Part shown: piece by piece, positions 39,865 through 57,376 of the stretch
How positions within the stretch are numbered: position 1 is the stretch's first letter
Layout: each line of letters starts with the position of its first letter
Source: Mesorhizobium sp. SARCC-RB16n
GTDB taxonomy: Bacteria; Pseudomonadota; Alphaproteobacteria; Rhizobiales; Rhizobiaceae
Direction: 5' to 3'
NCBI RefSeq assembly: GCF_008520305.1
Contig: NZ_ML703263.1
Location: forward strand, 124,001 to 188,000
Length of the DNA: 64,000 bases
Translations under genes and position numbers: made by a program
Notes under the pieces: model-generated
What the model was told of the DNA's origin: nothing
The model's input: only the letters and a program-made list of their open reading frames with translations
Database searches by the model: none

Positions 39865-40093
39865 CTTACGGGATCGCGTCCGGCCATGTGTCTTATACTG
39901 TCATGGCGATGATCGGCATCTCGGCGGTCATCGCCACATCGGCGATGCTGTTCAGCATCGTGCCGGCAGGCATGATGATCATGACTTTTTGAATTCCGCG
40001 CTGCTCATTTCCGCTCGCAATTGCGACGCTCGCGCGCTACCCAAAGCACGACTTTTCCGGTCAACGAAGCCCACACTCGCACAAGGGTCCATT

Positions 40094-40495
40094 ATGTTGC
40101 TCGTCGACGTCTATCTCGACAAATCGCCGATCCAGGGCATCGGTGTGTTTGCCAAGAACCACATTGCCAAGGGCACGCTCGTCTGGAAGCTCGACCCCCG
40201 GTTCGACCGGATCATCGACGTCGAGACCTATGAGGGCGAGACCGGGCCGGTGAAGAACTATCTCGACCGCTATTCCTACCCCGACCGGCGCGATCCGGCC
40301 TATATCGTCTTTGAGGCTGACGACGCCCGCTACATGAACCATGACGACGAGCCGAATTGCGATGTCTCATCGCCTGAGGAAACCTACGCCCTGCGCGACA
40401 TCGCCCCGGGCGAGGAGATGACCTGCAACTACAACCATTTCTTCGAAACGGGCTTCGATTTCCTCGGCGATCGCCACCTGCAATCCGAGGACTAG
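40094..40495 (+). CDS. SET-domain protein
   Basis: A 133-residue stand-alone SET domain. Seen: GIGVFAKNHIAKGTLVWKLD at the start (G-x-G-x-F/A segment), RYMNHDDEPNCD (the NH-S/D-x-x-PN pseudoknot motif) and LRDIAPGEEMTCNYNHF (the E-x-x-x-Y/N-Y end of the fold). In eukaryotes SET domains methylate protein lysines; bacterial stand-alone forms are of uncertain target. Its stop overlaps the convergent cytochrome gene by 4 bases. Confidence 0.85.
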   Translation: MLLVDVYLDKSPIQGIGVFAKNHIAKGTLVWKLDPRFDRIIDVETYEGETGPVKNYLDRYSYPDRRDPAYIVFEADDARYMNHDDEPNCDVSSPEETYALRDIAPGEEMTCNYNHFFETGFDFLGDRHLQSED

Positions 40496-41442
40496 TTCGT
40501 GCTTTTCTTGCGCGCCGGATAGCCGTTGGGATGCGGCGGTACCGCCTTGAGATAGGCGGCAATCGCCGCACGGTCATCCGCCGTCAGCTCGGCCATGTTG
40601 CGCTGCACGTCGACCATGGCGCCGCCGACGGAATCGAAATTCGGTGTGAACCCGGTTTCGAGGTAGTTTGCGATATCGGACGCGGACCAGTCGCCGATGC
40701 CCCCCTCGCCCGAAGTGAGGTTCGGCACGACGCCCGGGCCCACGGCGGCCACGGCACCGGCCAGCCATTCGCTTTTCTTGGTGCCGCCAGCCAAGTCGCG
40801 CGGCGTATGGCATTCGCCGCAATGACCCGGCCCTTCGACAAGGTAGCGGCCTGCCATAACAGGTTCCGGCGCGCCATCAGGCAGGGGAATGACAGGCTGG
40901 TCGCTGAGATAGAGGCGCTTCCACAGGCCGATGCCACGCCTGATGTTGAATGGGAATGCCAGCGAATTGCCCGGCGGCTTGCCGGCGGCGGCGGGGAGCG
41001 TCTTCAAGAAAGCGTAGAGGTCGGCGACATCAGAAGGTTTCATGCGCGCGTAAGAGGCATAGGGGAATGCCGGATAGAAATGCTGGCCCGTGGGCGAAAC
41101 ACCCTTCAGCATGGCATTGGCGAGATCCTCGATCGACCAGGCGCCGATGCCGTCCTTGGGATCTTGCGAAATGTTGGGAGGCACGAAAGTGCCGAACGGG
41201 GTCTTGAGTTCGAGGCCACCCACGAGTTGAAGCCGTGCATCGCCCTGCGACCCAGGCTTCGCATGGCAGGAGGTGCAGCCGCCGGCATAGAAAATGCGCT
41301 TGCCTCGGGCAGCGTCACCCGGCCCGAGTTGCGCCAGGGTTGCAGCATCGAGCCTGACCGGTGCCGACAGCAGCCACCCGGCGGCCGCGCCGGCGACGCC
41401 CAGGACGAGGGCCGCGCCGACGAGCTTCTTCAGCCATGCCAT
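40492..41442 (-). CDS. Di-haem cytochrome c
   Basis: A 316-residue exported cytochrome with an N-terminal signal or anchor (about 5-24) and two haem-binding motifs, CTSCH (about 51) and CGECH (about 204). Axial Met candidates lie in the loops after each motif. It resembles the cytochrome subunits of membrane alcohol/aldehyde or gluconate-type dehydrogenases. Start ATG at 41442 (MAWLKKL) was preferred to a TTG three codons earlier. It follows a cytochrome c' gene, 9 bases downstream, in an apparent two-gene operon. Confidence 0.88.
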   Translation of the reverse strand: MAWLKKLVGAALVLGVAGAAAGWLLSAPVRLDAATLAQLGPGDAARGKRIFYAGGCTSCHAKPGSQGDARLQLVGGLELKTPFGTFVPPNISQDPKDGIGAWSIEDLANAMLKGVSPTGQHFYPAFPYASYARMKPSDVADLYAFLKTLPAAAGKPPGNSLAFPFNIRRGIGLWKRLYLSDQPVIPLPDGAPEPVMAGRYLVEGPGHCGECHTPRDLAGGTKKSEWLAGAVAAVGPGVVPNLTSGEGGIGDWSASDIANYLETGFTPNFDSVGGAMVDVQRNMAELTADDRAAIAAYLKAVPPHPNGYPARKKSTN

Positions 41443-41451
41443 GGCTGGCAA

Positions 41452-41889
41452 TCAGCCCTTCTTGACCCTGTAGCTCTGATGGCAGGCGCCGCAATTCGAC
41501 CCAAGAACGCCGACTTGCGCTTTGAGCGCATCGACATCGGCAGGAGCCGCCGCGACGGCCGCCTTGACGTCGGCGAGATACTTATCCTCGGCCGCCTTGA
41601 AGCCGGCCATGTCTTCCCAGATCTTTGGTGCCGCCGTGGTGTCGCCGGTATCGCTGCCCTTTGGGAACAAGGCCTCTACGTCGAATTTCTCGGCATTTGC
41701 CTGCACTGCCTGCAGCTGCGTCAGCACCGCGGCGGCATCAAAGGGTTCCTCGCCCTTGGCCACTTTCGACAGGCCGCCGACGATCTTTCCGCGTTCCTTC
41801 ATCAGAGCCTGCCGATCGAGGATCGGATCGGCAAAGGCCGCCGACGCGGCGAGTGCGAGCATAGAGATGGCGACGACAAGCTTTCTCAT
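41452..41889 (-). CDS. Cytochrome c'/c-556
   Basis: A 145-residue periplasmic four-helix cytochrome: signal peptide (about 1-20, ending AFA) and a C-terminal haem site CGACHQSYR, as in cytochromes c' and c-556. Probably an electron carrier partner of the di-haem cytochrome encoded next, or a nitric-oxide-binding protein as in the c' family. Confidence 0.9.
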   Translation of the reverse strand: MRKLVVAISMLALAASAAFADPILDRQALMKERGKIVGGLSKVAKGEEPFDAAAVLTQLQAVQANAEKFDVEALFPKGSDTGDTTAAPKIWEDMAGFKAAEDKYLADVKAAVAAAPADVDALKAQVGVLGSNCGACHQSYRVKKG

Positions 41890-42011
41890 TTATTGGGCTC
41901 CGTGATGAGGGCATTTCAGGACAGGACGTTAACGGACGTGGAGAAAGGAATATTCCCTTCTGCCCGCATGAATTTTGTGTGACCTTTCCGCGGCACCTCG
42001 GTACAGAAAAA

Positions 42012-42088
42012 GAAAAGCCCCGGCATTGAACTGACCCCGTAAAGTTGGACACAACCTTCGGAGGTCAGTTCACATGCCGGGGCTTTTC
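42012..42088. repeat. Long inverted repeat after sodB (terminator with IS-end-like core)
   Basis: Arms of 25 and 26 bases (42012-42036 and 42063-42088) are identical when one is reversed, apart from a single extra G. The outer part (GAAAAGCCCCGGCAT) behaves as a terminator for sodB: on the minus strand the stem ends in GGGGCTTTTC followed by TTTTTC. The inner part, TGAACTGACC...GGTCAGTTCA around a 26-nt core, resembles the ends of IS3-family elements. Confidence 0.75.
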
Positions 42089-42098
42089 TGAAGGCCTG

Positions 42099-42695
42099 TC
42101 AGGCTTTTTCGTAGAGTTCGAGAACGTGGTCCCAGTTGATCAGGCTGTCGACGAAGGCCTCGAGGTATTTCGGCCGGGCGTTGCGATAGTCGATGTAGTA
42201 GGAGTGCTCCCAGACGTCGACGCCGAGGATCGGCGATGCGCCGTGAACCAGCGGGTTTTCGCCGTTCGGCGTCTTCGAGATCGCCAGCTTGCCGTCCTTG
42301 ACCGAAACCCAGGCCCAGCCCGAACCGAACTGCGTCGTGCCGGCGGCGATGAAATCAGCCTTGAACTTGTCGTAGCCGCCGAGATCGCTGTCGAAAGCCT
42401 TCTGCAATGCGCCAGGCAGCTTGTTGCCGCCGCCGCCCTTCTTCATCCATTTCCAGAAATGGATGTGATTGTAGTGCTGGGCGGCATTGTTGAAGAGACC
42501 GGCATTCTTGCCGAACGACTGCTTGACCACCTCTTCGACCGAAAGATCGCCAAGGCCGGCTTCCGCGGCCAGCTTGTTGCCGTTGTCGACATAGGCCTTG
42601 TGATGCTTGTCGTGGTGATACTCCAGCGTCTCTTTCGACATATAGGGCTGCAGGGCCTCATAGTCGTAGGGCAGAGCGGGCAATTCGAAAGCCAT
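42099..42695 (-). CDS. sodB: Fe/Mn superoxide dismutase
   Basis: A 198-residue cytoplasmic superoxide dismutase. The metal ligands are visible: His in YHHDKHHKAYVD, His in AAQHYNHIHFW, Asp and His in DVWEHSYYIDYRNARP. The metal (Fe or Mn) cannot be settled by eye. Monocistronic, ending in the long inverted repeat at 42012-42088. Confidence 0.96.
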   Translation of the reverse strand: MAFELPALPYDYEALQPYMSKETLEYHHDKHHKAYVDNGNKLAAEAGLGDLSVEEVVKQSFGKNAGLFNNAAQHYNHIHFWKWMKKGGGGNKLPGALQKAFDSDLGGYDKFKADFIAAGTTQFGSGWAWVSVKDGKLAISKTPNGENPLVHGASPILGVDVWEHSYYIDYRNARPKYLEAFVDSLINWDHVLELYEKA

Positions 42696-42871
42696 GGGTA
42701 GTACTCCCTCGTGGAAAATCCGGTGTGGATACCGAAGTAAGATAGGTCGGGATTGAGCTGGAGCAACTCCGGAAGTGAAGCGCCGGTTCCTTTTCTAAGC
42801 GGGTTCCCGAGAACTGTCACACGCTTTTCCTGCGACCGACCGCGCAGCGGCAAAAAGGCCGGACAGGCATC

Positions 42872-43750
42872 TCAGCCAGCCGAGGTCGAATGCGCCCAAT
42901 CCCAATAGAGTTCGCGTGCCTTCTTGGCCACCGGGCCGGGTTGCAGGTCGCGGCTCTCGATGCGGGTGATCGGCACCACTTTGGAGTGGTTGCCTGTCGA
43001 GAAGATTTCGTCCGCTTCGAGGAAATCCCGCACCGATAGCGTCTTTTCGGTCGTCCTGAACCCATAGTCGCCGAGCAGCGTCATCGTGCGCGAGCGGGTA
43101 ATGCCGGACAGGAAGGTTCCGTTGGGCGCCGGCGTCAGCACATGGCCGTCCTTCACAAGGAAGATGTTCGAGCTTCCGGTCTCCGCGACATTGCCCAGCA
43201 TGTCGAGCACAAGCGCATTGTCGAAGCCGCGCATCTTGGCCTCGAGGATGGCGCGGCCATTGTTGGGATAGAGGCAGCCGGCCTTGGCATTGGTCGGCAT
43301 GGTTTCGATGGTCGGACGCCGGAACGGCGACACGGTCACCGAAAAGCCGGTCGGCGAGATCATCGGCGATTCATAGAGGCACAGACAGAAACGGGTCGAG
43401 GCGGGATCGGCCGGCACGCCCATGTAGCCGCCATGCTCTGCCCAGTACATCGGCCTGATGTAGACCGCCGTCTTGCCGTCGAAGTTCTTCAATCCATCCC
43501 AGGTCAGCCCGACAATCTGCTCTAGCGTCATGTTCGGCGCGAGGCCGAGCGCGATCGCCGAGGCATTGACGCGTGCGGCATGAAGTTCGAGATCGGGCGC
43601 CACGCCCTCGAACCAGCGCGCCCCGTCGAACACGCTGGTGCCGAGCCACATGGCGTGGCTGCGTGGCCCCAGGATGGCGACATTGCCTTCATACCAATCG
43701 CCATCGACGAAAGTCCATGTCGCGGATTGCGCCGCCGCCGCCAGTGTCAT
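42872..43750 (-). CDS. ilvE: Branched-chain amino acid aminotransferase (class IV)
   Basis: A 292-residue PLP-dependent aminotransferase that interconverts branched-chain 2-oxo acids and amino acids. The PLP lysine is in TNAKAGCLYPNN, and the cofactor-phosphate region is VAETGSSNIFLVKDG with FLSGITRSRTM. Close class IV relatives (D-amino-acid aminotransferase, aminodeoxychorismate lyase) are less likely given the YIRPMYWAE segment. Divergent from the dehalogenase gene. Confidence 0.88.
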   Translation of the reverse strand: MTLAAAAQSATWTFVDGDWYEGNVAILGPRSHAMWLGTSVFDGARWFEGVAPDLELHAARVNASAIALGLAPNMTLEQIVGLTWDGLKNFDGKTAVYIRPMYWAEHGGYMGVPADPASTRFCLCLYESPMISPTGFSVTVSPFRRPTIETMPTNAKAGCLYPNNGRAILEAKMRGFDNALVLDMLGNVAETGSSNIFLVKDGHVLTPAPNGTFLSGITRSRTMTLLGDYGFRTTEKTLSVRDFLEADEIFSTGNHSKVVPITRIESRDLQPGPVAKKARELYWDWAHSTSAG

Positions 43751-43905
43751 CGCGTTTTCCCGTTCCGGTCAATCTTGTGTGACAGCATTGGAAGATGCTT
43801 TGGCAGCTGTCGTCAACCAGCATCGGGGAGTTTTGTTGAGGCCAGCAACAGGTGCGATGCAATCAAGGCTTGCACCTTGTCCCGCCTCGCCTCAAAACTG
43901 TTGCC

Positions 43906-44568
43906 ATGCAATACGCCGCTTATGTTTTCGATGCCTACGGCACGCTGTTCGACGTGCACGCGGCGGTACGCCGCCATGCGGACGCGATCGGCCCCGACGG
44001 CCAACTCCTATCCGAAATCTGGCGTGCCAAGCAGCTCGAATACTCCTGGGTACGCACTCTGATGGGCGCCTATGCCGATTTCTGGCAATTGACGGAACAG
44101 GCGCTGGACTTCGCCTTGCGCAAGGTCCCTTCGGCCGATCCGAGCCTCAAGGCGAAACTGCTGGAAGCCTATTGGAGGCTAGACTGTTACCCCGAAGTGC
44201 CGGCCGTGCTGAAAGCGCTCAAGGCTTCGGGCGCCAGGCTGGCGATCCTCTCCAACGGTTCGCCCGAAATGCTGGAGGCGGCGGTCAAGTCCGCGGCACT
44301 CGACCAGGTCCTGGACGATATCTATTCCGTCGATGCGGTGCGTCGCTTCAAGACCGATCCAGCGGTCTACGACATGGTCGCCACGGGATGGCGTCTCTAT
44401 CCCGGCGCGATCTCCTTCCAGTCTTCCAATCGCTGGGACATTGCGGGCGCCACCAAATTCGGCTTCCGCACGGTTTGGATCAACCGCTTCAATCAGCCGG
44501 AGGAATATCGGGACTTGCCGCCGGCCCTGATCCTGCCATCGCTGGAGGCCCTCGTATCCGCCGGCTAA
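43906..44568 (+). CDS. Haloacid dehalogenase, type II
   Basis: A 220-residue HAD hydrolase. Nucleophile Asp9 in YVFDAYGTLFDVHAA, Ser/Asn in AILSNGSPEML, Lys in RFKTDPAVYD and the SSNRWDIAGA motif specific to L-2-haloacid dehalogenases. It would convert L-2-haloacids to D-2-hydroxyacids, though many members have broader roles. Start at 43906 (MQYAAYVFD) gives the canonical family N-terminus. Confidence 0.9.
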   Translation: MQYAAYVFDAYGTLFDVHAAVRRHADAIGPDGQLLSEIWRAKQLEYSWVRTLMGAYADFWQLTEQALDFALRKVPSADPSLKAKLLEAYWRLDCYPEVPAVLKALKASGARLAILSNGSPEMLEAAVKSAALDQVLDDIYSVDAVRRFKTDPAVYDMVATGWRLYPGAISFQSSNRWDIAGATKFGFRTVWINRFNQPEEYRDLPPALILPSLEALVSAG

Positions 44569-44574
44569 ACGCAC

Positions 44575-44594
44575 CTGTGGCCTCAACGCCACAG
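44575..44594 (+). terminator. Short hairpin after the dehalogenase gene
   Basis: CTGTGGC and GCCACAG form a 7-bp stem with a 6-nt loop, 6 bases past the stop. No T-run. Confidence 0.4.
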
Positions 44595-44740
44595 TGGCGG
44601 CGCAGTCACAGCTTCGCCTTTGTTTGTCCACGTTCGGGCCAGAATCGGAACCGCCTATCGCCTCAGGTGTTGTCATGCACCCGCAGCGGACGTCGGTGTG
44701 TTGACGCCTTGTTGCGATTTGAGTCCTAAAGAAGGCAGCC

Positions 44741-45571
44741 ATGTCCATAACCGAAATCGAATCCTATCGCCTGAGCCGTCGCGGCTTCCTCAACGCCGCA
44801 GCATTGGGCGCCGCCTCGATTGCGGTTTCCGCATGCGCCACCACTGGGCCGGGGCCGGTCCAGCCGCCGCCACCGACCTACGTCGAACCGCCGCTCGCCG
44901 ATTATGCGTCGATGTACGCGGCGGTCAGCGATGGCGGCTTCGATCTGCCGGCTATCCCGGTCGACAGGATCGACCCACAGTTCCTGCGCCAGATCGTTCC
45001 CGACCCGACCGGGCAGAAGCCAGGAACCATCATCGTCGATACGACAGGCCATTTCCTCTATCTGGTTCGTCCGGGTGGCCAGGCAATCCGCTATGGTGTC
45101 GGTCTCGGCCGCGCCGGCTTCGAATGGTCGGGCGACGCCGTCGTCCAGTGGAAGCAGAAATGGCCGAAATGGACGCCGCCGGATGAGATGATCGCCCGCC
45201 AGCCGGAATTGAAGCAGTACAGCGCCGACAATGGCGGCATGCCCGGCGGCTTGAAGAACCCGCTCGGCGCGCGCGCGCTCTATCTCTTCCAGGGCAATGT
45301 GGACACGCTCTACCGCCTGCACGGCTCGCCGGAATGGCGCTCGATCGGCAAATCGGTGTCATCGGGCTGCGTGCGCCTGATGAACCAGGACATCATCGAC
45401 CTCTACGACCGCGTGCCCTCGAAGACACCGGTCATCGTGACCAACGACCCCCGCCAGCCGATGGTGGCCGCAGCGACGGCCAACCACAAGGCCATCCCGA
45501 TCGACGCCGGCGTGCCGGATGGATCGGTGCTGCTCGGTCCGGTCAAAGCGGTCACGAACGCGATCTTCTGA
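44741..45571 (+). CDS. L,D-transpeptidase, Tat-type lipoprotein
   Basis: A 276-residue YkuD/ErfK-family L,D-transpeptidase that makes 3-3 peptidoglycan crosslinks or links proteins to the wall. The catalytic motif is complete: HGSPEWRSIGKSVSSGCVRL, with His, Ser/Gly, Cys and Arg. The N-terminus combines a twin-arginine motif (SRRGFLNAAAL) and a lipobox (VSAC), so it looks like a Tat-exported lipoprotein. A Pro-rich linker follows. A terminator lies 16 bases downstream. Confidence 0.9.
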   Translation: MSITEIESYRLSRRGFLNAAALGAASIAVSACATTGPGPVQPPPPTYVEPPLADYASMYAAVSDGGFDLPAIPVDRIDPQFLRQIVPDPTGQKPGTIIVDTTGHFLYLVRPGGQAIRYGVGLGRAGFEWSGDAVVQWKQKWPKWTPPDEMIARQPELKQYSADNGGMPGGLKNPLGARALYLFQGNVDTLYRLHGSPEWRSIGKSVSSGCVRLMNQDIIDLYDRVPSKTPVIVTNDPRQPMVAAATANHKAIPIDAGVPDGSVLLGPVKAVTNAIF

Positions 45572-45586
45572 GCTTGTCGAGATCCA

Positions 45587-45607
45587 AGGCGGCGAGCCAC
45601 GCCGCCT
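45587..45607 (+). terminator. Terminator after the L,D-transpeptidase gene
   Basis: AGGCGGCG and CGCCGCCT form an 8-bp stem with a 5-nt loop, followed by CGGG and TTTT. It separates this gene from the convergent dddD gene. Confidence 0.6.
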
Positions 45608-45634
45608 CGGGTTTTGGGCCATCGGTGTCTGTTC

Positions 45635-48148
45635 TCAGCCTGGCAAATAGGCACTGCTCCAGGAAACACTGGCGGCACCCGACTTCAGCATTCTGTCGAT
45701 TTCAGCATCGTCATAGCCGACGGCGGCGAGAACGGCGCGTGTCGAGGCGCAGTATTTCTCAGCCGACGCAATCGCATAGACCTTTCCGTCGCTGGGCCGG
45801 ACGGCGAAAGGATCAAGTTGGGTCACCGTGTGACCGCTCGGGTGGCCTGGGAAGACGGAGAATGAGTAGCTGCCATATTCCGTACCAGGACTGCCGTCCG
45901 CCATCCTTGCGTTCCGGCTCCGGATCGTCTCGATGTTCTCGCAAGGCGATGCACCGATATCGGCGTCGACAAGGCGCTGTTGCCAAATCTCGGCCGGTTC
46001 GGTCATGAATATCTTGGCCAGATGGGTCTCCCGATCGGGCTTCGGTATCGAGGCCAGCCCCGTCAATCCCTCTACCGTCTCGAAGCGTGGCAAGTCGGCG
46101 TCCGACGCACATAGCAGGATCGAACCACCGGATGCCGTTTCGTAAAGCCGGGACAATGCGTCAAAACCTTTTGTTTCTCGGCCCGCAGGCTCGTCGAATG
46201 GTCGGCGGCCCTCATAATCGTAGCAGAAGGGGATCTGTGCCAGCCCTGTCAGCGCCGACAGCGACGTGCGTGGCCGGCCGATAACGCTGGTAGTGGATTT
46301 CTGAAAAAGCGCGGCAGCCACGCCGAGAGCGGCGCCAAAGCCGCACATGACATCGATGGTGCCGACATGGGCATGTTCTTCCGGCGTCTGCATCGATCCC
46401 CCAAACCGAAGCATGATGCCGGTCGCCGCCTGGACCAGGTCGTCATAGCCAAGATAGTTGGTGCGCGGTCCGACGCGGACGCCACTGAAGCAATCGAGCT
46501 GACAGAAAATTGCGTCGGGGTTGAGCGCTCTCATCCCGTTGAGGTCGAGTCCCATGACGTCGACCTGACGGTCGGTGGCGTTCCAGACGACGACATCCAC
46601 GGACTTGACCAGCCTCTCGAACGCCTCGCGCCCTTCAACCGTTGCGATATCCAGCAGCGCGGATTTTTTGCCACGCATGTGGGACATGCCGAAAATCACC
46701 GTATTCCAGCAGTCGTAGAACGGTTTTGCCGGATCGACCTTGATCACCTCCGCGCCGAAGCGGGCGAGGTAAGCGACCGAGTGCGGGCCCGCGATGACGT
46801 TGCAGAGATCGAGTATCTTGATGCCGTCGAGCCAGCCGACCGAGGCATTGGCGGTTGGAGCAGACGGAAGCGGCCGTTTCACTTCAGCCAGCCTTGCCTG
46901 GGCCTCGGCCACGGTTACCCAGCTGCGCGGCACCGGGTTCAGCATGGCTTGCGCACTTTCCTGCAGCCAAACCATCGGCCCAGGCTGGATCATGCGGCCC
47001 AGTATGGGATCGTCGACCTCGATCATCAGGCCGGCTGCCCTGGCATGATCGTCGGCGATCCATTCCTGCAGCCAACGCTGCGGTGCTCCCGGAAATAACC
47101 CCTCGCCGAAAATGCGCTCCCATTGCGCCGCAGTGCGGGTCAGGAAAACCGCCTTCATCCTTGCGGCAATCTTGTCGGCCCAGAATTTCGGCAAGGGATA
47201 GACGCCGAGCGACGCGTCCGATGACCATTCCGAGACGGGAAGATAGGTGTCGTCTTCCTCGTGAAGCCCTTCACTCACGAGTTCATCGTAAAGGCCGAGG
47301 GTCTGCAGGCATCGTTTGGCGTGGTTCTTGTGGCTTGGGCAGACGACGTAGAACATCCGCCCGTCGCCGCACATGTAGCTGCGATAGAAGGGATCGAGGA
47401 ATTCCTGCAAGTCGCCGTAGGACATGTCCATCGGCAGGCCTTCCTTGCGGCGCCGTTCGATCTCCCGTTCGCGCTGCGTCTGATAGCGAAGCGGATAGTC
47501 TTCGATCCTGATGGAGTTGTAAGACAGGCCCTCCATCACCGCGCTGGCGAGCGGCACTTCGATATGGTCGCCGTGTCCGGTCCGTTGGCGGCTTTGAAGA
47601 GCCAGAACTGTTGCGGAAGCCGCGAGCATGGTGCCATAGGCCGAGGCTAGGGGCAGTGGCGAAAAGGACGGATTGATTCCCATCAGCACCCGGTTGAGGC
47701 CCATGTCCGTGAAGACGCCGGACGAGGCCGCGATAACGGTCTCGAAGGCGCGCCAGTCGCTGCGCAGTTGATCGTTGGAGGCGAAGCCGGGGATCGATAC
47801 CGTGATCAACTCGGGACGGGCTTTTCGCAGCGCTTCGAAGTCGATGCCGAGCCGGGCCAGGACCTTGGGCCTGAAATTCTCGATGACGATGTCGGCCTCG
47901 GCAACCAGCGCATTCGCCTCGTTCAGGCCCGCAGCGGTTTTCAGGTCGATCGTGACGCTCAACTTGTTGCGGTTGAGAATTGCATTGGCCGGATTGTCCC
48001 AGAGCGGACCCGAGGGGGGATCGACGTGAACGACGCTCGCGCCGAGATCGCCGAGGATCATCGCCACCGCGGGACCGGCGATATACTGCCCGAAGTCGAT
48101 GATCTTGATGCCGGACAGTGGCAGTGCCGAACGCGAAATCGATGTCAT
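45635..48148 (-). CDS. dddD: DMSP CoA-transferase/lyase DddD (tandem class III CoA-transferase)
   Basis: An 837-residue protein made of two CaiB/BaiF domains (about 9-415 and 438-830). Length, tandem layout and the opening LSGIKIIDFGQYIAGPAVAM match DddD, which transfers CoA to dimethylsulfoniopropionate and releases DMS, giving 3-hydroxypropionyl-CoA. The catalytic Asp of the family is kept in the second domain (Asp599 in HVGTIDVMCGFGAA), at nearly the position I recall for Asp602 of Marinomonas DddD, and is missing from the equivalent place in domain one (LPLASAYGT). It lies 16 bases after a GMC dehydrogenase gene and near a divergent LysR gene, as in ddd clusters. Alternative: a tandem CoA-transferase for another betaine-like acid. 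Confidence 0.82.
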   Translation of the reverse strand: MTSISRSALPLSGIKIIDFGQYIAGPAVAMILGDLGASVVHVDPPSGPLWDNPANAILNRNKLSVTIDLKTAAGLNEANALVAEADIVIENFRPKVLARLGIDFEALRKARPELITVSIPGFASNDQLRSDWRAFETVIAASSGVFTDMGLNRVLMGINPSFSPLPLASAYGTMLAASATVLALQSRQRTGHGDHIEVPLASAVMEGLSYNSIRIEDYPLRYQTQREREIERRRKEGLPMDMSYGDLQEFLDPFYRSYMCGDGRMFYVVCPSHKNHAKRCLQTLGLYDELVSEGLHEEDDTYLPVSEWSSDASLGVYPLPKFWADKIAARMKAVFLTRTAAQWERIFGEGLFPGAPQRWLQEWIADDHARAAGLMIEVDDPILGRMIQPGPMVWLQESAQAMLNPVPRSWVTVAEAQARLAEVKRPLPSAPTANASVGWLDGIKILDLCNVIAGPHSVAYLARFGAEVIKVDPAKPFYDCWNTVIFGMSHMRGKKSALLDIATVEGREAFERLVKSVDVVVWNATDRQVDVMGLDLNGMRALNPDAIFCQLDCFSGVRVGPRTNYLGYDDLVQAATGIMLRFGGSMQTPEEHAHVGTIDVMCGFGAALGVAAALFQKSTTSVIGRPRTSLSALTGLAQIPFCYDYEGRRPFDEPAGRETKGFDALSRLYETASGGSILLCASDADLPRFETVEGLTGLASIPKPDRETHLAKIFMTEPAEIWQQRLVDADIGASPCENIETIRSRNARMADGSPGTEYGSYSFSVFPGHPSGHTVTQLDPFAVRPSDGKVYAIASAEKYCASTRAVLAAVGYDDAEIDRMLKSGAASVSWSSAYLPG

Positions 48149-48164
48149 GGCGGTGATCTCTTGC

Positions 48165-49862
48165 TCAGTGTCCGTGTCGCCGCGCGTCGTCGATGATCCA
48201 GCGCGCCGCCTTTTCGGCGATCATCATCGTGGGAGCACTGGTGTTGCCGCTGGTGATCGTCGGCATCACGCTGGCGTCGACGACCCGCAAACCCTCGATG
48301 CCGCGGACACGCAGCCGACTGTCGAGAACGGCCATCCCGTCGTCGTTGCGCCCCATCCTGGCGGTTCCCACGGGATGGAAGATGGTGTTTGCGATGTCGC
48401 CCGCGAGTTTCGCGAGATCTTCATCGCTCTGGAATTCCACACCGGGCTTCCATTCGACCGGATTATATCTTGCAAGCGCCGGCTGGCCGACGATCGACCT
48501 GATCTGCCTGATGCTGTCGGCGGCAATCTTGCGATCTTTCTCGGTGCTCAAATAACTCGGGGCGATGGCGGGCGCTTCCCCGCGCTGAGCGGAGCGGACC
48601 CGCACACTGCCGCGACTGGTCGGATTGAGGTTGCAGACGCTGGCGGTGAAGGCCGGGATGGCGTGCAGAGGTTCGCCGAACGCGTCGAGACTAAGCGGCT
48701 GCACATGATATTCGAGATTGGCATGCGCCTGGCCTGGATCGGAGCGTGTGAACGCGCCGAGCTGCGATGGGGACATGCTCATCGGCCCGGTGCGCTTCAA
48801 GGCGTATTCCAGTCCGATCATCGCCTTGCCGACAAGACTGTTGGCAAGCGTGTTGAGTGTTCTGGCATTGGTGACCTTGAAGACGGCGCGTATCTGCAGG
48901 TGATCCTGCAAATTTTCTCCGACGCCCGGGAGATCAAGCTCGACATCGATACCGGCACCCTTGAGAAGCGCGGCCGGGCCGATGCCCGAGAGCTGCAGTA
49001 TGTGCGGAGAGCCAATCGCCCCGGCCGACAGAATGACCTCACATTTCGCCCGGGCCGACACCTGCTGGTTGCGCCTGTGGAGGAACAGCCCCGTGCACCG
49101 CTTGTGCCCATCCGGCGCGGTTTCGATGCACAGCCTGTCGACTTCGGCCTCGGTCCAGATCACCAGGTTGCGGCGATGGCGGATCGGCCGCAGAAAGGCT
49201 TTCGACGTGTTCCACCGCCAGCCGGATTTCTGGTTGACCTCGAAGTAACCGACACCTTCGTTGTCGCCGCCGTTGAAATCGGAAGATCGGGGGATGCCCG
49301 CCTGAACAGCGGCGTCGGTGAAGGATTCGAGAATGTCCCATTTGAGACGCTGCTTTTCGATGCGCCACTCGCCGCCGTGTCCATGCATGTCCGAGAACCG
49401 GCTGTTGTCGCCGGTGGCGGGGTCGGCGCCGTTGTCGAGGCGATAGTGATCCTCATGCGCCATGAAGTCCGGCAGCGATTTTTCCCATGACCACTCGCCG
49501 TCGCCGGTGACTGCCGCCCATTGATCGTAGTCGCGAGACTGGCCACGCATGTAGATCATGCCATTGATCGAGGAGCAGCCGCCCAGGACCTTGCCCCGGG
49601 GATAACGCAGGGAGCGGCCGTTGAGGCCCGCCTCGGGCTCGGTGTTGTAAAGCCAGTCGGTACGCGAATTGCCGATACAGTAGAGGTAACCCACGGGAAT
49701 GTGAATCCAGGGGTAGCTGTCGTTCCGGCCAGCCTCGATCAACAGGACACGCCTGGCGGGATCGCTGCTGAGACGGCTGGCAAGCAGGCAACCCGCCGAC
49801 CCGGCGCCGACCACGATGTAGTCGAAAACGTCAATATCCGAGCGAACGCCCCGCGCTTCCAT
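48165..49862 (-). CDS. dddA: GMC flavin alcohol dehydrogenase, DddA-like
   Basis: A 565-residue choline-dehydrogenase-like FAD enzyme. FAD motif YIVVGAGSAGCLLASRL at about 16-32, second signature GAIGSPHILQLSGIGP, catalytic His in IFHPVGTARMG and the paired Asn in ITSGNTSAPTMM. In Halomonas, DddA of this family oxidises 3-hydroxypropionate to malonate semialdehyde downstream of DddD. Its place directly before dddD in one operon supports that role; choline or another alcohol remains possible. Start ATG at 49862 with ACGGGA upstream, TTG three codons earlier as alternative. Confidence 0.78.
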   Translation of the reverse strand: MEARGVRSDIDVFDYIVVGAGSAGCLLASRLSSDPARRVLLIEAGRNDSYPWIHIPVGYLYCIGNSRTDWLYNTEPEAGLNGRSLRYPRGKVLGGCSSINGMIYMRGQSRDYDQWAAVTGDGEWSWEKSLPDFMAHEDHYRLDNGADPATGDNSRFSDMHGHGGEWRIEKQRLKWDILESFTDAAVQAGIPRSSDFNGGDNEGVGYFEVNQKSGWRWNTSKAFLRPIRHRRNLVIWTEAEVDRLCIETAPDGHKRCTGLFLHRRNQQVSARAKCEVILSAGAIGSPHILQLSGIGPAALLKGAGIDVELDLPGVGENLQDHLQIRAVFKVTNARTLNTLANSLVGKAMIGLEYALKRTGPMSMSPSQLGAFTRSDPGQAHANLEYHVQPLSLDAFGEPLHAIPAFTASVCNLNPTSRGSVRVRSAQRGEAPAIAPSYLSTEKDRKIAADSIRQIRSIVGQPALARYNPVEWKPGVEFQSDEDLAKLAGDIANTIFHPVGTARMGRNDDGMAVLDSRLRVRGIEGLRVVDASVMPTITSGNTSAPTMMIAEKAARWIIDDARRHGH

Positions 49863-50040
49863 TCCCGTCAATCCTCCGCGAAATGCGATGAAAGCAGCGC
49901 CGCGCCGCGTTCACAAGGGCACGACAAGCCGGGTGTTTCTTATAATTCTCGTCGCCCGCGACCGTCATCAGCATGCCTCCCATGGCACAATGCGGCTATT
50001 CGTTTGCTGAATCCAATGATAAATTGAAGAAACGATTATA

Positions 50041-50979
50041 ATGGAAATTTATATGGACCATCTGGATTTCAGGCTGGTGAAAGCGTTCGTTACCGTGGCG
50101 CAGGAAGGGAACGTCACCAAGGCGGCCGAATTGCTGAATCTCACCCAGCCTGCCGTCAGCCTTCAGCTCAAACGGCTCTCTCAGGACGTCGGAGTGACAT
50201 TGTTCCATCGGACCGCCGGCGGGCTGGAATTGACGCGCGACGGCGCGCTGCTTGCGGCTAAAGGCCAGCAGGTGCTGGCTCAGGCGGCCGAGTTCAGACA
50301 GACCGCCAGGCATCTCAGCACGAAGCTGCGCGGCAAACTCAGGATCGGTACGATCATCGACCCTGAATTCACCCGCCTGGGCGCGTTTCTGCAGGCTCTC
50401 GCCGAAAGCGGCCCGGGCATGGACACGGAACTTCGGCAAGGCATGAGTGGCGAGGTCGCCATCCGGCTCAAGCGAAACGAACTGGATGTCGGCTTTTTTC
50501 TCGGCGATCTCGATGATTTCGGCACCAGCACCGATGCCGCCGATACGCAATCCGAGGTCCAGTTCTTCATCGAGCAATTGTCACGCCTGACCTATCGCGT
50601 CGTGGCGCCGCCTGGCTTTGCCAGCATGGTGGCAGGGCGGGACTGGAAGGAGCTTGCCGAGCTTCCCTGGATCGGCACTCCATCGGAATCGGTCCATAAC
50701 AGGCTGCTTGCGAGGCAATTTGGCGGCCTCAAGCAGAATATCGTCGCCCTGGTCGACCAGGAAACCTCCATGCTGGCGATGGTTCGTACCGGCCTCGGCC
50801 TAAGCCTCTGCCGGGAATCGATCGCACTCAATGAACGACAGGCAAACGGCCTGGTTATCGCAGACAGGGTCAAGCTGGAGACCAGCCTGGGTTTTGCCTG
50901 CTTGTTCGCGCGGCGATCCGATCCAAATGTCTCTCTGGCCTTCGACGTCATCGAGCGAATCTGGCGCGGTGAACATTAG
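50041..50979 (+). CDS. LysR-type regulator of the ddd locus
   Basis: A 312-residue LysR regulator: N-terminal winged helix (GNVTKAAELLNLTQPAVSLQL) and a substrate-binding domain (about 95-300). Divergent from dddA with about 180 bases between, the usual place for the controlling LysR. In Marinomonas a LysR protein, DddR, activates dddD with DMSP, so this is a DddR candidate by position only. The promoter region has ATAA-N13-TTAT just before the start, a loose inverted repeat of LysR-box type. A second ATG at 50053 is possible. Confidence 0.85.
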   Translation: MEIYMDHLDFRLVKAFVTVAQEGNVTKAAELLNLTQPAVSLQLKRLSQDVGVTLFHRTAGGLELTRDGALLAAKGQQVLAQAAEFRQTARHLSTKLRGKLRIGTIIDPEFTRLGAFLQALAESGPGMDTELRQGMSGEVAIRLKRNELDVGFFLGDLDDFGTSTDAADTQSEVQFFIEQLSRLTYRVVAPPGFASMVAGRDWKELAELPWIGTPSESVHNRLLARQFGGLKQNIVALVDQETSMLAMVRTGLGLSLCRESIALNERQANGLVIADRVKLETSLGFACLFARRSDPNVSLAFDVIERIWRGEH

Positions 50980-51086
50980 ACGCACCGCCTCCAGCTCAGC
51001 GCCGAAGCAGCCGATGGTCTTGAGCCGCTTGACGTGATCACACCTCGCGCTCGGCTATCCTGCCGACGGCCTTGAAGCCGCCGGTC

Positions 51087-51110
51087 CCGGACGCCTTCGA
51101 AGGCGTCCGG
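51087..51110. terminator. 24-bp perfect palindrome between convergent genes
   Basis: The 12-base half CCGGACGCCTTC is followed by its exact reverse complement, between the LysR and HerA-like genes. As RNA it folds to a strong hairpin with a TTCGAA-centred tip. A bidirectional transcription end is likely. Confidence 0.6.
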
Positions 51111-51139
51111 CCGACATGGGCCACTCGTCCGGGCGCGGC

Positions 51140-52678
51140 TCAACGTCCCCGCGACAGGCTCCCTAGAATCGCGCGCACGATCGCACGGCCGACCGACAAG
51201 CCGACCGAGCGCACAACCGATTTGATTGCGGCTTCCGCCACCGTCTGGCGGTTGGACGGGCGCGGCGCCGGCGCGCGCCTGCCGCCGGACTGCGGCGCAG
51301 GATCTTCATTGCCGAAGCCTGGAATGGTCCAGCGCGAGCCACCGCTGCCTGTCTGGGCCTCGGCATCCTGCGCCTCCTTGGCCTTCTTCTGCAGCATCTC
51401 GAAGGCCGACTCTCGATCGATGACCTGGTCGTACTGGCCGGCGACCGGGCTTTCCCCGATCAGCTTCTGCCGCTCGGCGGGGGTTATGGGCCCAAGCCGC
51501 GACGACGGCGGACGGATCAGCGTGCGCTGGACCATGGACGGAATGCCCTTGGTCTCCAGCGTCGAGACCAGCGCTTCGCCGGTGGCGAGCTGGGTAATGG
51601 CGGTGGCGCAGTCGAAATCGGGATTGCGCCGGAAGGTTTCGGCCGCCGTCCTCACTGCCTGCTGCTCGCGTGGCGTGTAAGCGCGCAGCGCGTGCTGCAC
51701 GCGGTTGCCGAGCTGGGCCAGGACCTTTTCGGGGATATCCAAAGGGTTCTGCGTGACGAAATAGACGCCGACGCCCTTGGAGCGGATCAGGCGGACCACC
51801 TGCTCGACCCTATCGATCAGCACTTTCGGCGCCTCATCGAAGAGCAGGTGCGCCTCGTCGAAGAAGAACACCAGCTTCGGCTTGTCGGGGTCGCCGACCT
51901 CCGGAAGCACCTCGAACAGTTCCGACATCAGCCACAACAGGAAGGTCGCGTAGAGACGCGGATTCATCATTAGCTTGTCGGCGGCCAGCACGCTGATGGC
52001 GCCGCGACCGTCGCGGGTCGTGCGCATGATGTCGGAAATCCGCAAGGCCGGCTCGCCGAAGAAATTCGCCGCGCCCTGCTGCTCAAGCACCAGCAGCGTC
52101 CGCTGAATGGCGCCCACCGATGGCCTGGTGACATTGCCGTAACGGGCGCTGATCTCTTCGGCGCGCTCCGCGATGTTGGCGAGCAGCGCCTGCAGGTCCT
52201 TGAGGTCGAGGAGAAGCAGGCCCTCTTCATCGGCAATGCGGAAGGCGATGTTCATGATGCCTTCCTGCGCGTCGGTCAGGTTCATCAGCCGCGACAGGAG
52301 CAGCGGTCCCATTTCCGAAATGGTCGCGCGGATCGGGTGGCCCTGCTCGCCGAACAGGTCCCAGAAAATGGCCGGGAATTCCTGACAATCATAAGGGTCG
52401 AGCTTGACCTGTTCTGCCCGCTTGACCAGGAAATCCTGGGCGGTGCCCATCATGGCGATGCCGGAAAGGTCGCCCTTGATGTCGGCGCAGAATACCGGCA
52501 CGCCGGCGTTGGAAAATCCCTCCGCCAGAATCTGCAAGGTGACAGTCTTGCCGGTACCCGTCGCGCCGGTCACCAGACCGTGGCGGTTGCCATATTGGAG
52601 CAGCAGATTTTCGGCGCGCTGATAACTGTCGTCGGGCTTGCGGCTGGCGCCGATGAAAATACTGGTATCGTCAGCCAT
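51140..52678 (-). CDS. HerA/YjgR-like ATPase (DUF853)
   Basis: A 512-residue P-loop ATPase of the HerA-FtsK superfamily, YjgR/DUF853 branch. Walker [13 protein letters not shown] (about 37-48), Walker [14 protein letters not shown] (about 260-272), arginine-finger-type segment [13 protein letters not shown], and an Ala/Pro/Arg-rich C-terminal tail (about 430-512). HerA proteins pump DNA with NurA; YjgR itself is uncharacterised and no nuclease gene lies beside it. Cytoplasmic. Confidence 0.88.
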
Positions 52679-53036
52679 ATGTCGGGTCTCCGCAAACTGA
52701 TGTGCCTAAAGCCAGCCTTTGCCCGAGGGTCCAGCCATTGCCGGAAGGTATAGTGAGGCTGCTGCACAGCGACAATCACAATTGTCCAAAGCGGACCAAT
52801 CATCCAATCGGGTAATCGTCCGATCGGGGTAATCGCCAAGGCGGGATTTTGGAACTTGCGAATTTCGACGGTGTTTGGCAATCGTTCATGGTCCGTCCAC
52901 GCAAGCCGCCCTATATCAGGTGGATCGAATATCAGGTGGGCCGAATTCTGGCACGGGACGCGCATTGCGATAACCGACCGGGGACCGTAGACTGGGCTGC
53001 CCGGGCTGGTGCGGCCACATTGAACGAGGAAGATGA
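52679..53036. other. Divergent intergenic region before mutAB
   Basis: A 358-bp gap between the HerA-like gene and mutA, transcribed apart. It holds two near copies of a 13-base direct repeat ATCGGGTAATCG (about 52805-52835), which might be an operator for the mutase genes. A 68-codon frame here was not accepted. No cobalamin riboswitch pattern was seen. Confidence 0.4.
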
Positions 53037-54479
53037 ATGGGCGCCGGAGCCTTGACCAGGGATGTTGAGCCAACGGATGCGGAGCGTCAGCGATGGCTGG
53101 CCTTGGCCGAAAGAGCGTTGGCGGGCGCATCCTTCGAGGAAAAGCTGGTCTCGCACACCGACGACAACATCCGCGTCGAGCCGCTCTATGATCGCGCGAC
53201 CGGAACGGAACCGATCGTGCGCGCCAATCCCCAGTCGCCCTGGATCGTCAGCCAGCGCGTCGACGACCCGGATGTTGATCGCGCCAAGAGCCAGGTTCTT
53301 GACGATATAGCGCAGGGCGCGACGGGATTGTCGCTCGTCTTCGAAGGCGCCCCGAACGCATTCGGCTATGGCTTGCCGAGGACGGCACAGGCACTGGAGA
53401 CGGTGCTGGAGGGCGTGCCCCTCAATCGGGTCCAGATCCGCATCGATACCCACCCCTGGAGCCGCCCAATGGCCGACTGGCTGGTGGCGTTCCTGAGCAA
53501 GCGCCGCTCCGATCCGGCAAAGCTCAACCTTTCCTTCGGCATCGATCCGGCGGCCATTCTCGCCGGCACCGGCCGACTGCGCATGTCGATCGAGGCGCTG
53601 CAGGAATCGATGCCGCAATCGCTGGCGCATTTCTTCTCGATGGGCGTTCCGGGCGTGCTTCTGGAGGCGGACGGCCGCGTCTTTCACAACGCCGGCGCCA
53701 CGGAAGCGCAGGAACTCGGCATCATGCTGGCTTCGGCGGTCTCGTACCTCAGAATGTTCGAGAAGGCGCGGCAGCCGCTCGTCTATGCCGCGCCTCATAT
53801 CGGTTTCGCGCTCAGCGTCGACCAGGACCAGTTCCTGTCAATTGCCAAGGTCCGAGCCTTGCGCAGGCTGTGGGCGCGAGCCCAGGAGGCCTGCTCGATC
53901 CCCAATTCCACGGCAAACATCCATGCCGAGACGTCATTTCGCATGATGACGGCATCGGATCCCGAAACCAATATCCTGCGCACAACGATCGGCTGCTTCG
54001 CCGCGGCGGCGGGAGGCGCCGATTCGATCTCAATCCTGCCGCACACGATCGCGCACGGCCTGCCGGCAGCTTTTGCCCGCCGCGTCGCGCGCAACGCGCA
54101 ACTGATCATGGCCAATGAAAGCCATGTCGATCATGTCGCCGATCCCGCCTATGGCTCCGGCGCCGTCGAGGCGCTGACGTCAGACCTTTGCGCAGCAGCG
54201 TGGGCAGAATTGCAGGCGATCGAGGCAGAGGGTGGTGTGCTGTCCAGCCTTCGGGACGGACATATCCAGCAGCGTGTCCGTACTGCCGCCGCCCAGCGCG
54301 GCATTGCCTTCAAGTCAGGCGAGCGGGCCATTGTCGGCGCCACGCTTTATCCGTTGAAAAGCGAGCGTCCGGTCGAGACGCTGGACGCAGAGCGACGACC
54401 TGCCTTCACCGAAGGCGTTGTCCTGTGCGAAGCGCTGTCGCCGGTCCGCATCGATCAATTCATCGGGGCCGCTTCTTGA
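53037..54479 (+). CDS. mutA: Methylmalonyl-CoA mutase small subunit
   Basis: A 480-residue (beta/alpha)8-barrel subunit of heterodimeric methylmalonyl-CoA mutase. Recognisable segments are EPLYDR near the start, [14 protein letters not shown], and the barrel end [20 protein letters not shown]. It lacks the cobalamin-binding domain and catalytic residues of the large subunit and stops short of it, as expected for the structural subunit, although some homologues keep a vestigial B12 domain. Its stop overlaps the large-subunit start by 4 bases. The ATG at 53037 has a GAGGAAGATGA sequence upstream. Confidence 0.9.
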
Positions 54480-56596
54480 TTCCGGATTTCACTCAGATCG
54501 GCTGGGTGCCACCGCGCCGCGCGCCTGTCGAGATTAAGGGACAGCGGACGACGCCGGAAGGTCTAGTCGTCAAGCAGTTGTACAGCCAAGGCGACCTCAA
54601 GGGATTGCCGCATCTCGACACCTATCCGGGCCTGGCGCCCTTCGTGCGCGGCCCCTACCCGACCATGTATGTCCAGCAGCCCTGGACGATCCGGCAATAT
54701 GCCGGCTTTTCGACCGCCGAAGAGTCCAACGCGTTTTACCGGCGCAACCTTGCCGCCGGCCAAAAAGGTCTTTCGGTTGCCTTCGATCTCGCCACGCATC
54801 GCGGCTATGACTCGGACCATCCGCGCGTCGCCGGCGATGTCGGCATGGCGGGCGTGGCCATCGATTCCATCCTCGACATGCGGCAGTTGTTCGACGGCAT
54901 TCCGCTCGGCGAGATGACCGTATCGATGACGATGAACGGCGCGGTACTGCCGATCATGGCGCTCTACATCGTGGCGGCGGAAGAGCAAGGCGTCGCGCAG
55001 AAGGACCTGGCGGGGACCATTCAGAACGACATCCTGAAGGAGTTCATGGTCCGCAACACCTACATCTATCCGCCGAAGCCCTCGATGCGGATCGTCTCGG
55101 ACATCTTCTCCTATACCTCGAAGAACATGCCGAAGTTCAACTCGATATCGATCTCCGGCTATCACATGCAGGAAGCCGGCGCGACCGCCGACCTGGAACT
55201 CGCCTATACGATCGCCGACGGCGTCGAATATGCCCGTGCCGGCGTCGCAGCGGGCCTCGACATCGACCGTTTCGCGCCGCGCCTGTCCTTCTTCTGGGCG
55301 ATCGGCATGAACTTCTTCATGGAAGTGGCCAAGCTCAGGGCCGCACGCCTGTTGTGGGCGACGCTGATGAAAAAGAATTTCGCGCCGAAGGACGAGCGAT
55401 CGCTGTCCCTGCGCACCCATTGCCAGACCTCCGGCTGGTCGCTGACGGCGCAGGATCCCTACAACAACATCATCCGCACCATGATCGAGGCGATGGCAGC
55501 GACCCAGGGGCATACCCAATCGCTGCACACCAATTCCTTCGACGAAGCAATGGCGCTGCCTACCGACCACTCGGCGCGCATCGCCCGCAACACGCAACTC
55601 GTCCTGCAGAAGGAATCCGGCACCACGCGCATCATCGATCCGTGGGGCGGTTCGGCCTATCTCGAGCGGTTGACACACGATCTGGCGGCGCGTGCGCTTG
55701 CCCATATCGAGGAGGTCGAGGCTCTCGGCGGCATGGCGGCGGCGATCGAGAAGGGCATACCCAAGCTGCGCATCGAGGAAGCAGCTGCCCGCACGCAGGC
55801 GCGTATCGATTCCGGCGAGCAGATGCTGGTCGGCGTCAATGCGCATCGCCCCGGGACCGATATCGAGGTGGATGTGCTGAAGATCGACAATGCCGAGGTC
55901 AGGGCTCGGCAACTCTCGAAACTGCAACGGCTGAAAGGCACGCGCGACGTCGCCGCCGTCGAAGGCGCGCTCGATGCGCTGACCCGTGCCGCAAAAGGCG
56001 AGGATAACCTCCTGGAGTTCGCCATCCGCGCCGCGCGCGCCAATGCCACTGTCGGCGAAATCTCGTTCGCCTTGGAAAGAGCCTATGGGCGCCATGTGGC
56101 CACGGTGCAGACCATTTCCGGTGTCTACCGCAAGGCGCTTGGCGACAATCCGGTGGTCGACCGGCTGCAGGACAAGCTTGATGCCTTCGAAAAGAAAAAC
56201 GGCGGCAAGCCGCGCATTCTCGTCGCCAAGATGGGACAGGACGGCCACGATCGCGGGCAGAAGGTGATTGCCACGGCCTTCGCTGATCTCGGCTTCGACG
56301 TCACCGTGGGAGCCATGTTTCAGACGCCGGAAGAGATCGCCAAACTGGCGGTCCAGCATGACGTCCACATTATCGGCGCCTCATCGCTGGCAGCGGGCCA
56401 TCTGACGCTGATCCCCGAATTGCGCGACACGCTGAAGAAGCTCGGCCGAGGCGACATGCTGATCGTGGCCGGCGGTGTTATCCCGCCGCAGGACTACGAG
56501 GCGGTGCTGCGAGCCGGTGCTGCGGAAATCTTCCCGCCGGGCACGGTCATTCCGGAAGCGGCGGAGCGGCTGCTGGATCGGCTGCTGGCGCGTTGA
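54476..56596 (+). CDS. mutB: Methylmalonyl-CoA mutase large subunit
   Basis: A 706-residue adenosylcobalamin enzyme that isomerises (R)-methylmalonyl-CoA to succinyl-CoA, the last step of propionyl-CoA use. The barrel domain has [20 protein letters not shown] (central residues YPTMY and WTIRQYAG), [16 protein letters not shown] and [11 protein letters not shown]; the B12 domain has the DxHxxG motif with His591 in [24 protein letters not shown] and [11 protein letters not shown]. Start is TTG at 54476 inside TTGA, overlapping mutA. Second gene of the mutAB operon; no MeaB/ArgK chaperone gene follows. Confidence 0.95.
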
Positions 56597-56658
56597 GCGA
56601 ATATTGTAGCGCCGGAAAGGTTGCGTCACAATGACGAACACAACCAAGGGTAACGGCC

Positions 56659-56886
56659 GTGAAGACTATTGTCCGCATGCTCGACGACGGATCAGGTGTC
56701 GTGATCTTGCCGCAGGAAATGCTGGACAACCTGAACATGCAAGTAGGCGATCAATTCCAGATCATCGAAACCGATGACGGCGTCATTCTAAGACCGGTAA
56801 GAAGTGACGACGTCGAACGGCAGATGCGCGCTGCTCGTGATGTCATGGACCAGTGTGAGGCCGCATTGCAAAGGATGGCCAAGTAG
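56659..56886 (+). CDS. AbrB/MazE-type DNA-binding protein
   Basis: A 75-residue protein with a SpoVT-AbrB swapped-hairpin domain: VVILPQEMLDNLNMQVGDQFQI followed by DDGVILRPV (key core LP-x-x-ML and GD-x-F). Such proteins are usually antitoxins or small repressors. No toxin gene follows, because the next gene is a convergent GreA/B-like factor, so it is an orphan. GTG start preceded by AAGGGT. Confidence 0.75.
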   Translation: MKTIVRMLDDGSGVVILPQEMLDNLNMQVGDQFQIIETDDGVILRPVRSDDVERQMRAARDVMDQCEAALQRMAK

Positions 56887-56902
56887 ACGGACCTAGCTTG
56901 CG

Positions 56903-57376
56903 TCAGCCATCCGAGAGCTTGACGATCTCCCACTCCTTGCCGTTGACGCTGGCGAGGTCGCCGACCTTCTTGCCGAACAGCGCGACCGCCATTGGCGAGA
57001 CATGCGAGATGCTGCCCTTGGTTGGATCGGCTTCGTCTTCGCCGACGATCTTCCAATGCACCTTCTTGCCGTCATCGCTTTCCAGCGTGACACCCATGCC
57101 GAAGCGGACGACGTCGCTGCCGGACTCCGGCACGGAAAGCTCGGCACTCTCGCGCCGCGCGGTCCAATAGCGCAGATCGCGCGACACGACCGCGATGCGC
57201 TCGCGGTCGGCTTTCCGCTCCGCTTTCGCCATGATATCGCGCAGATCGGCCAGATTGTCCTCGATCTGGGCCAGGCCGCGCTCCGTCACCAGGTTACGGT
57301 GCGTGCTGATCGGGCGCTCGCCAACGCCGGCGATGGCATTCTCACTGTCTTCTTCGCGGGTAAAAGCTCTGCTCAT
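56903..57376 (-). CDS. GreA/GreB-family transcription factor
   Basis: A 157-residue protein with an N-terminal coiled-coil hairpin (about 28-75, LVTERGLAQIEDNLADLRDI) and a C-terminal FKBP-like domain (about 85-155, VRFGMGVTLES and SPMAVALFGKKVGD). This is the Gre-factor layout: the coiled coil enters the RNA polymerase secondary channel and rescues stalled complexes. It is closer to GreB-like accessory factors than to housekeeping GreA. Confidence 0.88.
   Translation of the reverse strand: MSRAFTREEDSENAIAGVGERPISTHRNLVTERGLAQIEDNLADLRDIMAKAERKADRERIAVVSRDLRYWTARRESAELSVPESGSDVVRFGMGVTLESDDGKKVHWKIVGEDEADPTKGSISHVSPMAVALFGKKVGDLASVNGKEWEIVKLSDG

Follow-up and report, generated by a model that had tools for sequence, protein, structure and literature searches.

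The question raised by the locus considered here is whether a rhizobial chromosome encodes the breakdown of dimethylsulfoniopropionate (DMSP), and by what route the genes would have arrived there. The locus lies at positions 45635-50979 of a 64,000-nt stretch of Mesorhizobium sp. SARCC-RB16n (contig NZ_ML703263.1; hereafter the window, whose numbering is used throughout) and comprises the genes for a tandem CaiB/class III coenzyme A (CoA)-transferase (dddD), a GMC flavoprotein (dddA-like), and a LysR-type regulator. Judged by its sequence, it is a DddD-DddA-LysR module of known type, and it can be read, with a probability of roughly 0.87, as a horizontally acquired, chromosomal DddD-type DMSP-catabolism module in Mesorhizobium. 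An earlier note, made from the letters of the window, had proposed such a module in a rhizobial chromosome. Papers are cited below by PMC number, from excerpts of their text.

The list of open reading frames (ORFs) has the three genes where they had first been placed, with all reading frames intact. On the minus strand, dddD (45635-48148) encodes an 837-residue protein, a DMSP CoA-transferase/lyase by homology, in which CoA_transf_3 (PF02515) was found in two stretches (E 5.4e-112). It is preceded on the same strand by the gene for a GMC (choline-dehydrogenase-like) flavoprotein (48165-49862), a predicted 3-hydroxypropionate (3-HP) dehydrogenase with the N and C domains PF00732 and PF05199. 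The ORF of the latter covers 48165-49871; ATG 49862 was taken as the likelier start, TTG 49871 upstream also being possible. Sixteen bases (48149-48164) separate the GMC stop from the dddD start, and ORFs and Pfam domains together confirm the tandem class III CoA-transferase gene 16 bases after a GMC gene that the earlier note had described. The LysR-type gene (50041-50979, plus strand; HTH_1 and LysR_substrate domains) does stand beside the GMC gene, but it is divergent from it, back to back, and not facing it as had been stated. That the chromosome is rhizobial is supported indirectly, by its relatives. In a genome scan for DddD relatives, from which the best 80 of 464 were retained (the 80 loci of all neighbourhood counts below), the closest were from Mesorhizobium sp. 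B2-3-12 (95% identity) and M. sophorae (88%), and in another genome of this genus group a module with a 97% identical DddD sits on a 6.38 Mb contig.

With two fused class III CoA-transferase domains and 837 residues, against about 830-840, the protein has the make-up of the DddD family. Plasmid records gave 48 matches, and in 46 of them one place alone spans 80% or more of the query; among these, the DddD of Sinorhizobium fredii NGR234 is 79.9% identical to the window protein over its full length. The single NGR234 match, on pNGR234b, is taken to be AAQ87407.1. An excerpt of PMC8520302 ranks AAQ87407.1 among the functionally ratified DddDs, together with those of Marinomonas MWYL1, Burkholderia ambifaria, Halomonas HTNK1, Pseudomonas J465, Psychrobacter J466, and Oceanimonas doudoroffii. 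A tree of 61 rows (47 of the 80 genome loci, seven plasmid copies, six paralogues as outgroup, and the window protein) was built by a quick method with support from the Shimodaira-Hasegawa-like approximate likelihood ratio test (SH-aLRT), without bootstrap or mixture model. The window protein groups there with two Mesorhizobium copies and Pararhizobium antarcticum, within a 14-row clade that also holds NGR234 (SH-aLRT 100). This clade is nested in a 55-row DddD clade (SH-aLRT 100) that excludes the six paralogues and whose other branches contain Halomonas, Psychrobacter, Roseobacter-group, Pseudomonas, and Paraburkholderia members. Since relatives of ratified strains occupy those other branches, the function of the window DddD is bracketed. 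The earlier note had named a place outside the DddD clade as one ground for refutation; the tree puts the protein inside that clade, with the NGR234 enzyme.

One intact catalytic Asp had also been claimed. In an alignment with YfdW, the Asp of the GDSNTGMH stretch, which we take to be the catalytic one, matches D599 of the window protein (GTIDVMCGF), the single CoA-transferase Asp, in the C-terminal domain; the Asp of this domain in DddD presumably corresponds to Marinomonas D602. Domain 1 has S169/A170 at the position held by Asp in solved relatives, so that the claim stands. Neither D599 nor S169 varies in any of the 61 rows, the six paralogues included. The conserved D599 supports a one-site CoA-transferase mechanism and would suit DMSP and other substrates alike. 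By such a mechanism, DddD would use D599 to load DMSP with CoA taken from acetyl-CoA or a similar donor and would then release dimethyl sulfide (DMS) together with 3-HP or 3-HP-CoA. An excerpt of PMC8163506, which cites Alcolombri 2014, describes a reaction in two steps, transfer of CoA from acetyl-CoA and cleavage.

The nesting of the window protein among DddD lineages that include marine bacteria, the functional ratification of NGR234 DddD (PMC8520302), and the DMSP content of the plants tested (PMC11464771) make it unlikely that the rhizobial enzymes, while DddD-like, act mainly on another plant or soil zwitterion, such as dimethylsulfoxonium propionate (DMSOP) or beta-alanine betaine, and cleave DMSP as a side activity. 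Such a preference would nevertheless accord with three observations, namely that DMSOP is also cleaved by DddD-bearing bacteria, with DMSP preferred (PMC10686828), that the Km of Marinomonas DddD is above 40 mM in PMC5395565, and that 7 of 80 loci have a ProX-type ATP-binding cassette (ABC) gene after dddD.

The six paralogues (L003, L006, L096-L099) are tandem CaiB proteins of 44-52% identity to the window protein. They resemble DddD in their two CaiB domains and in the conserved D599 position, but they form a separate clade, and in the two whose neighbours are annotated the adjoining genes are others (such as an N,N-dimethylformamidase-like one in L006). Membership of the window protein in this group was considered and rejected on the 61-row tree. 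A 40% identity cut-off for dddD counting is described in an excerpt of PMC11464771, and surveys using such a cut-off might include these paralogues.

The GMC protein is 68% identical to its counterpart in the ddd cluster of a Halomonas (L056). It is predicted to be DddA, as the earlier note had it, and would oxidise 3-HP to malonate semialdehyde. It was reported that Halomonas bluephagenesis without dddA can no longer use 3-HP as sole carbon source (PMC7940609), and 3-HP breakdown has been assigned to DddA or DddB, and DddC (PMC9327192). The best NCBIfam names for the GMC protein, on the other hand, are choline dehydrogenase, and the weaker names for the CoA-transferase include L-carnitine CoA-transferase; these names would point to a choline or glycine betaine module whose GMC enzyme is a choline dehydrogenase and whose CoA-transferase acts on a carnitine-like compound. 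All of these family scores, however, fall under their curated cut-offs (PRK02106, 547 against 605; betA TIGR01810, 459.6 bits against 732.1; L-carnitine CoA-transferase, 99.6 against 413), and a carnitine or choline module was rejected for that reason. Given also that the GMC protein co-diverges with DddD, and that H. bluephagenesis DddA itself carries the annotation choline dehydrogenase (PMC7940609), such a module is highly improbable.

As for regulation, the earlier note had a LysR-type DddR controlling dddD. From the divergent position and the co-divergence described below we infer a DddR/AcuZ-like regulator; the identity as DddR is the weaker part of the claim, and the name is given tentatively because the window LysR is only 45-57% identical to the LysRs of non-rhizobial clusters. 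The dddTD and dddCA-acuNK genes of Halomonas D47 are controlled by a LysR protein, AcuZ (PMC13104084). In the preferred reading, the window LysR protein would induce a dddA-dddD operon when DMSP or a product is present. An alignment of 16 LysR-GMC intergenic regions (the window and 15 rhizobial loci) has TTAT(A/G)AT and, about 17 bases on, ATTGGATT in common to all 16, while much else diverges. The corresponding block of the window (50009-50041) reads on the minus strand TTATAAT ... TTTATCATTGGATTC and is a candidate LysR operator or promoter. The first ATG of the LysR gene (50041) overlaps the conserved TTATAAT block, and the second in-frame ATG (50053) may be the one used.

How constant the three-gene arrangement is was seen in the 80 loci, where neighbour genes were called by a script rule and 6 loci have less than about 2.2 kb upstream. 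A same-strand GMC gene is present in 71 loci and adjoins dddD in 54; a divergent LysR gene lies upstream in 59, and an adjoining GMC gene and a divergent LysR gene occur together in 41. A BCCT transporter gene was called in 33 of 80, a methylmalonate-semialdehyde dehydrogenase (MMSDH) gene in 20, a ProX-type gene after dddD in 7, and an iron alcohol dehydrogenase gene in 5. Co-divergence was assessed in the 63 loci having all three module genes out of 86 (80 genome loci, five plasmid loci, and the window). Identity matrices correlate at r = 0.87 for DddD and GMC, 0.82 for DddD and LysR, and 0.87 for GMC and LysR, values reached in 0 of 999 permutations.

Among the closest known systems is the pNGR234b locus. 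It has the same order of divergent LysR, GMC, and DddD (DddD 80%, GMC 78-79%, and LysR 64% identical), but it lies on a megaplasmid and its dddD is followed by ProX/W/V-like ABC genes (named by reading), whereas the window module stands among chromosomal genes with no transporter beside it. The Halomonas ddd/acu clusters of the HTNK1/D47 type, represented by L041 (Vreelandella venusta) and L056 (Halomonas litopenaei), share DddD (69% and 67%), GMC/DddA (68%), and LysR (45-49%, the LysR of L041 being incomplete); they add BCCT and MMSDH genes, and L041 also has a second, shorter CaiB-type match. In clusters of the Psychrobacter dddB-dddC-dddD-dddT type (L077-L079, L081), DddD is 64% identical, but an iron alcohol dehydrogenase replaces the GMC protein, and MMSDH and BCCT genes adjoin.

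The complete ddd cluster was thus not found in the window, where neither a BCCT, nor another transporter, nor an MMSDH gene stands beside the module. The earlier note had made the same observation for BCCT and malonate-semialdehyde dehydrogenase, and it was extended here to whole genomes of relatives. One MMSDH gene scoring above the cut-off of TIGR01722 is present away from dddD in each of four dddD-bearing Mesorhizobium genomes (G107, G001, G002, G003), and malonate semialdehyde would be converted to acetyl-CoA by an MMSDH-type enzyme encoded elsewhere. For uptake, a carrier other than a BCCT would serve, such as an ABC betaine importer. A ProX/W/V-like ABC importer is encoded after dddD in a rhizobial subgroup (L001, L012, L014, L016, L018, L040, L045, L051), and it is a candidate DMSP or betaine importer replacing BCCT there.

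The module is accessory in Mesorhizobium. In a search of the Mesorhizobium group that scored at most six candidates per genome, at least 9 of 146 genomes match DddD, at least five at 74-97% and at least four at 45-52% identity. In the family group, with at most two candidates scored per genome, matches were found in at least 19 of 394 genomes, at least 12 at 61-95% and at least seven at 45-52%. The right flank gene (51140-52678, minus strand), presumably a HerA/DUF853-like ATPase, is matched in 145 of the 146 Mesorhizobium-group genomes. The left flank gene (44741-45571, plus strand) is L,D-transpeptidase-like, as named by reading its sequence. The interval between the two (45572-51139) holds the module in the window and is a short spacer in module-free relatives.

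For the comparison of empty sites, the best 30 of the 145 matching genomes were picked by the likeness of the right flank gene, and two of them, G107 and G001, have the module on that side. In 15 of these 30 loci the flank genes lie side by side, within about 120 bases, and in two they are about 1 kb apart. In 11 the left flank gene falls outside the short locus. Alignments of 13 of the 15 adjacent-flank loci to the window give clean breakpoints. On the left, 12 part from the window within about 11 bases of the left-gene stop, the exception (L130) staying aligned as far as about 45615; on the right, the match resumes in all 13 at about 51133-51153, around the right-gene stop. Five of the 11 were examined at greater length (L151-L155), and all five have about 5-9 kb between the same flank genes, with no match to the module proteins; in G029 (L151), the one that was read, the stretch apparently holds genes, named by reading, for a LacI-type regulator, a sterol-desaturase-like protein, and a sugar-type ABC system. 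With a short spacer, the ddd module, or other cargo of 5-9 kb between the same genes, the site is a variable cargo spot in Mesorhizobium. The sparse presence of the module fits acquisition by recombination in the flanks, repeated loss being a less probable alternative. In M. sophorae the module lies elsewhere, neither window flank gene being found within 8 kb on each side (L011). No clear island signal was given by G+C (0.59-0.65 in the module, 0.58-0.67 in other 1 kb windows of 40000-58000), and no tRNA gene was found in the 64-kb window. The stretch 53037-56596, whose genes were read as methylmalonyl-CoA mutase, was considered as part of the module and rejected, because MutA adjoins the right flank gene in 30 of 30 loci, whether the module is present or not.

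Several points weigh against the reading of the locus as an acquired DMSP-catabolism module. D599 alone is no proof of DMSP activity, because the six 44-52% paralogues keep it. NGR234 is the only ratified sequence in the tree, the other ratified genera being represented by relatives, and the Marinomonas enzyme, the first DddD described, is not among the tree sequences. Identity of the window LysR to that of the Halomonas cluster L056 is 46%, and nine of the 80 loci have no same-strand GMC gene, three of these being among the six with a short upstream region. The right-hand spacer is unequal between carriers, at 0.16 kb in the window as against about 0.1 kb in G107 and about 1.1 kb in G001. As for transport, there is no BCCT or ProX-type gene in the flanks examined of 40 of the 80 loci, no BCCT gene in any of the four dddD-bearing Mesorhizobium genomes, and an NGR234 ProX-type homologue in only two of five genomes (beside dddD in G004, elsewhere in G107). 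Nor was either type of gene, BCCT or ProX, found in the flanks examined of the nearest relatives, L010 and L011.

The results on BCCT and ProX-type genes for L010 and L011 and on BCCT for the four Mesorhizobium genomes, together with the sporadic occurrence of the module (74% identity or more in at least five of 146 Mesorhizobium-group genomes), are what would be expected if it had been acquired but lay idle, with no uptake, induction, or benefit in its host. An idle module is hard to reconcile, however, with three intact frames in the window, with a DddD match free of internal stops in all nine matching Mesorhizobium-group genomes, with an intergenic block conserved in 16 loci, and with module proteins of G107 and L010 that are all three 93-98% identical to those of the window, and we consider it quite unlikely. 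A functioning DMSP-catabolism module, acquired into the chromosome, is the reading preferred here.

The earlier note had found a copy in a soil- or plant-associated genome surprising. The carrier is real, but the surprise is less than suggested. It was already reported that Rhizobium leguminosarum WSM2304 carries dddD (named in PMC3338564), a Rhizobium clade of dddD is mentioned in PMC7370799, and Mesorhizobium is named for dddP and ddhA in PMC7039863. Low levels of DMSP are reported to occur universally in plants (PMC11464771), and the compound has been reported in tomato (PMC4993785). With rhizobial dddD in print and DMSP reported from plants at large, a soil carrier is not unexpected. With the window, the rhizobial carriers already known gain a chromosomal case from Mesorhizobium, with no claim to a first report of dddD in that genus. 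The window also shows the entry point of the module, between two genes that in relatives are separated by either a short spacer or other genes. Taken with the reports of DMSP in plants (PMC11464771) and of the use of DMS by soil bacteria (PMC13352529), it favours a DMSP-to-DMS step on land, open to study in a genus of legume symbionts. There is an outside chance of a wider pattern, in which rhizobial LysR-dddA-dddD would be a terrestrial DddD branch. As a cassette, it would travel among plasmids and cargo spots on chromosomes; it would have been connected anew to ABC import and to a household semialdehyde dehydrogenase, and would be tuned to a plant propionate of the sulfonium or ammonium type, perhaps one other than DMSP.

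A further observation concerns the dddD of Agrobacterium leguminum MOPV5 (L045, 8001-10508), which is only 68% identical to that of the window. In the tree it stands next to Psychrobacter and Roseobacter-group copies, despite neighbours of rhizobial type (LysR, GMC, and ProX/W/V-like genes). Sliding identities are low in its last third and point to no clear donor; this dddD was either swapped alone or diverged fast.

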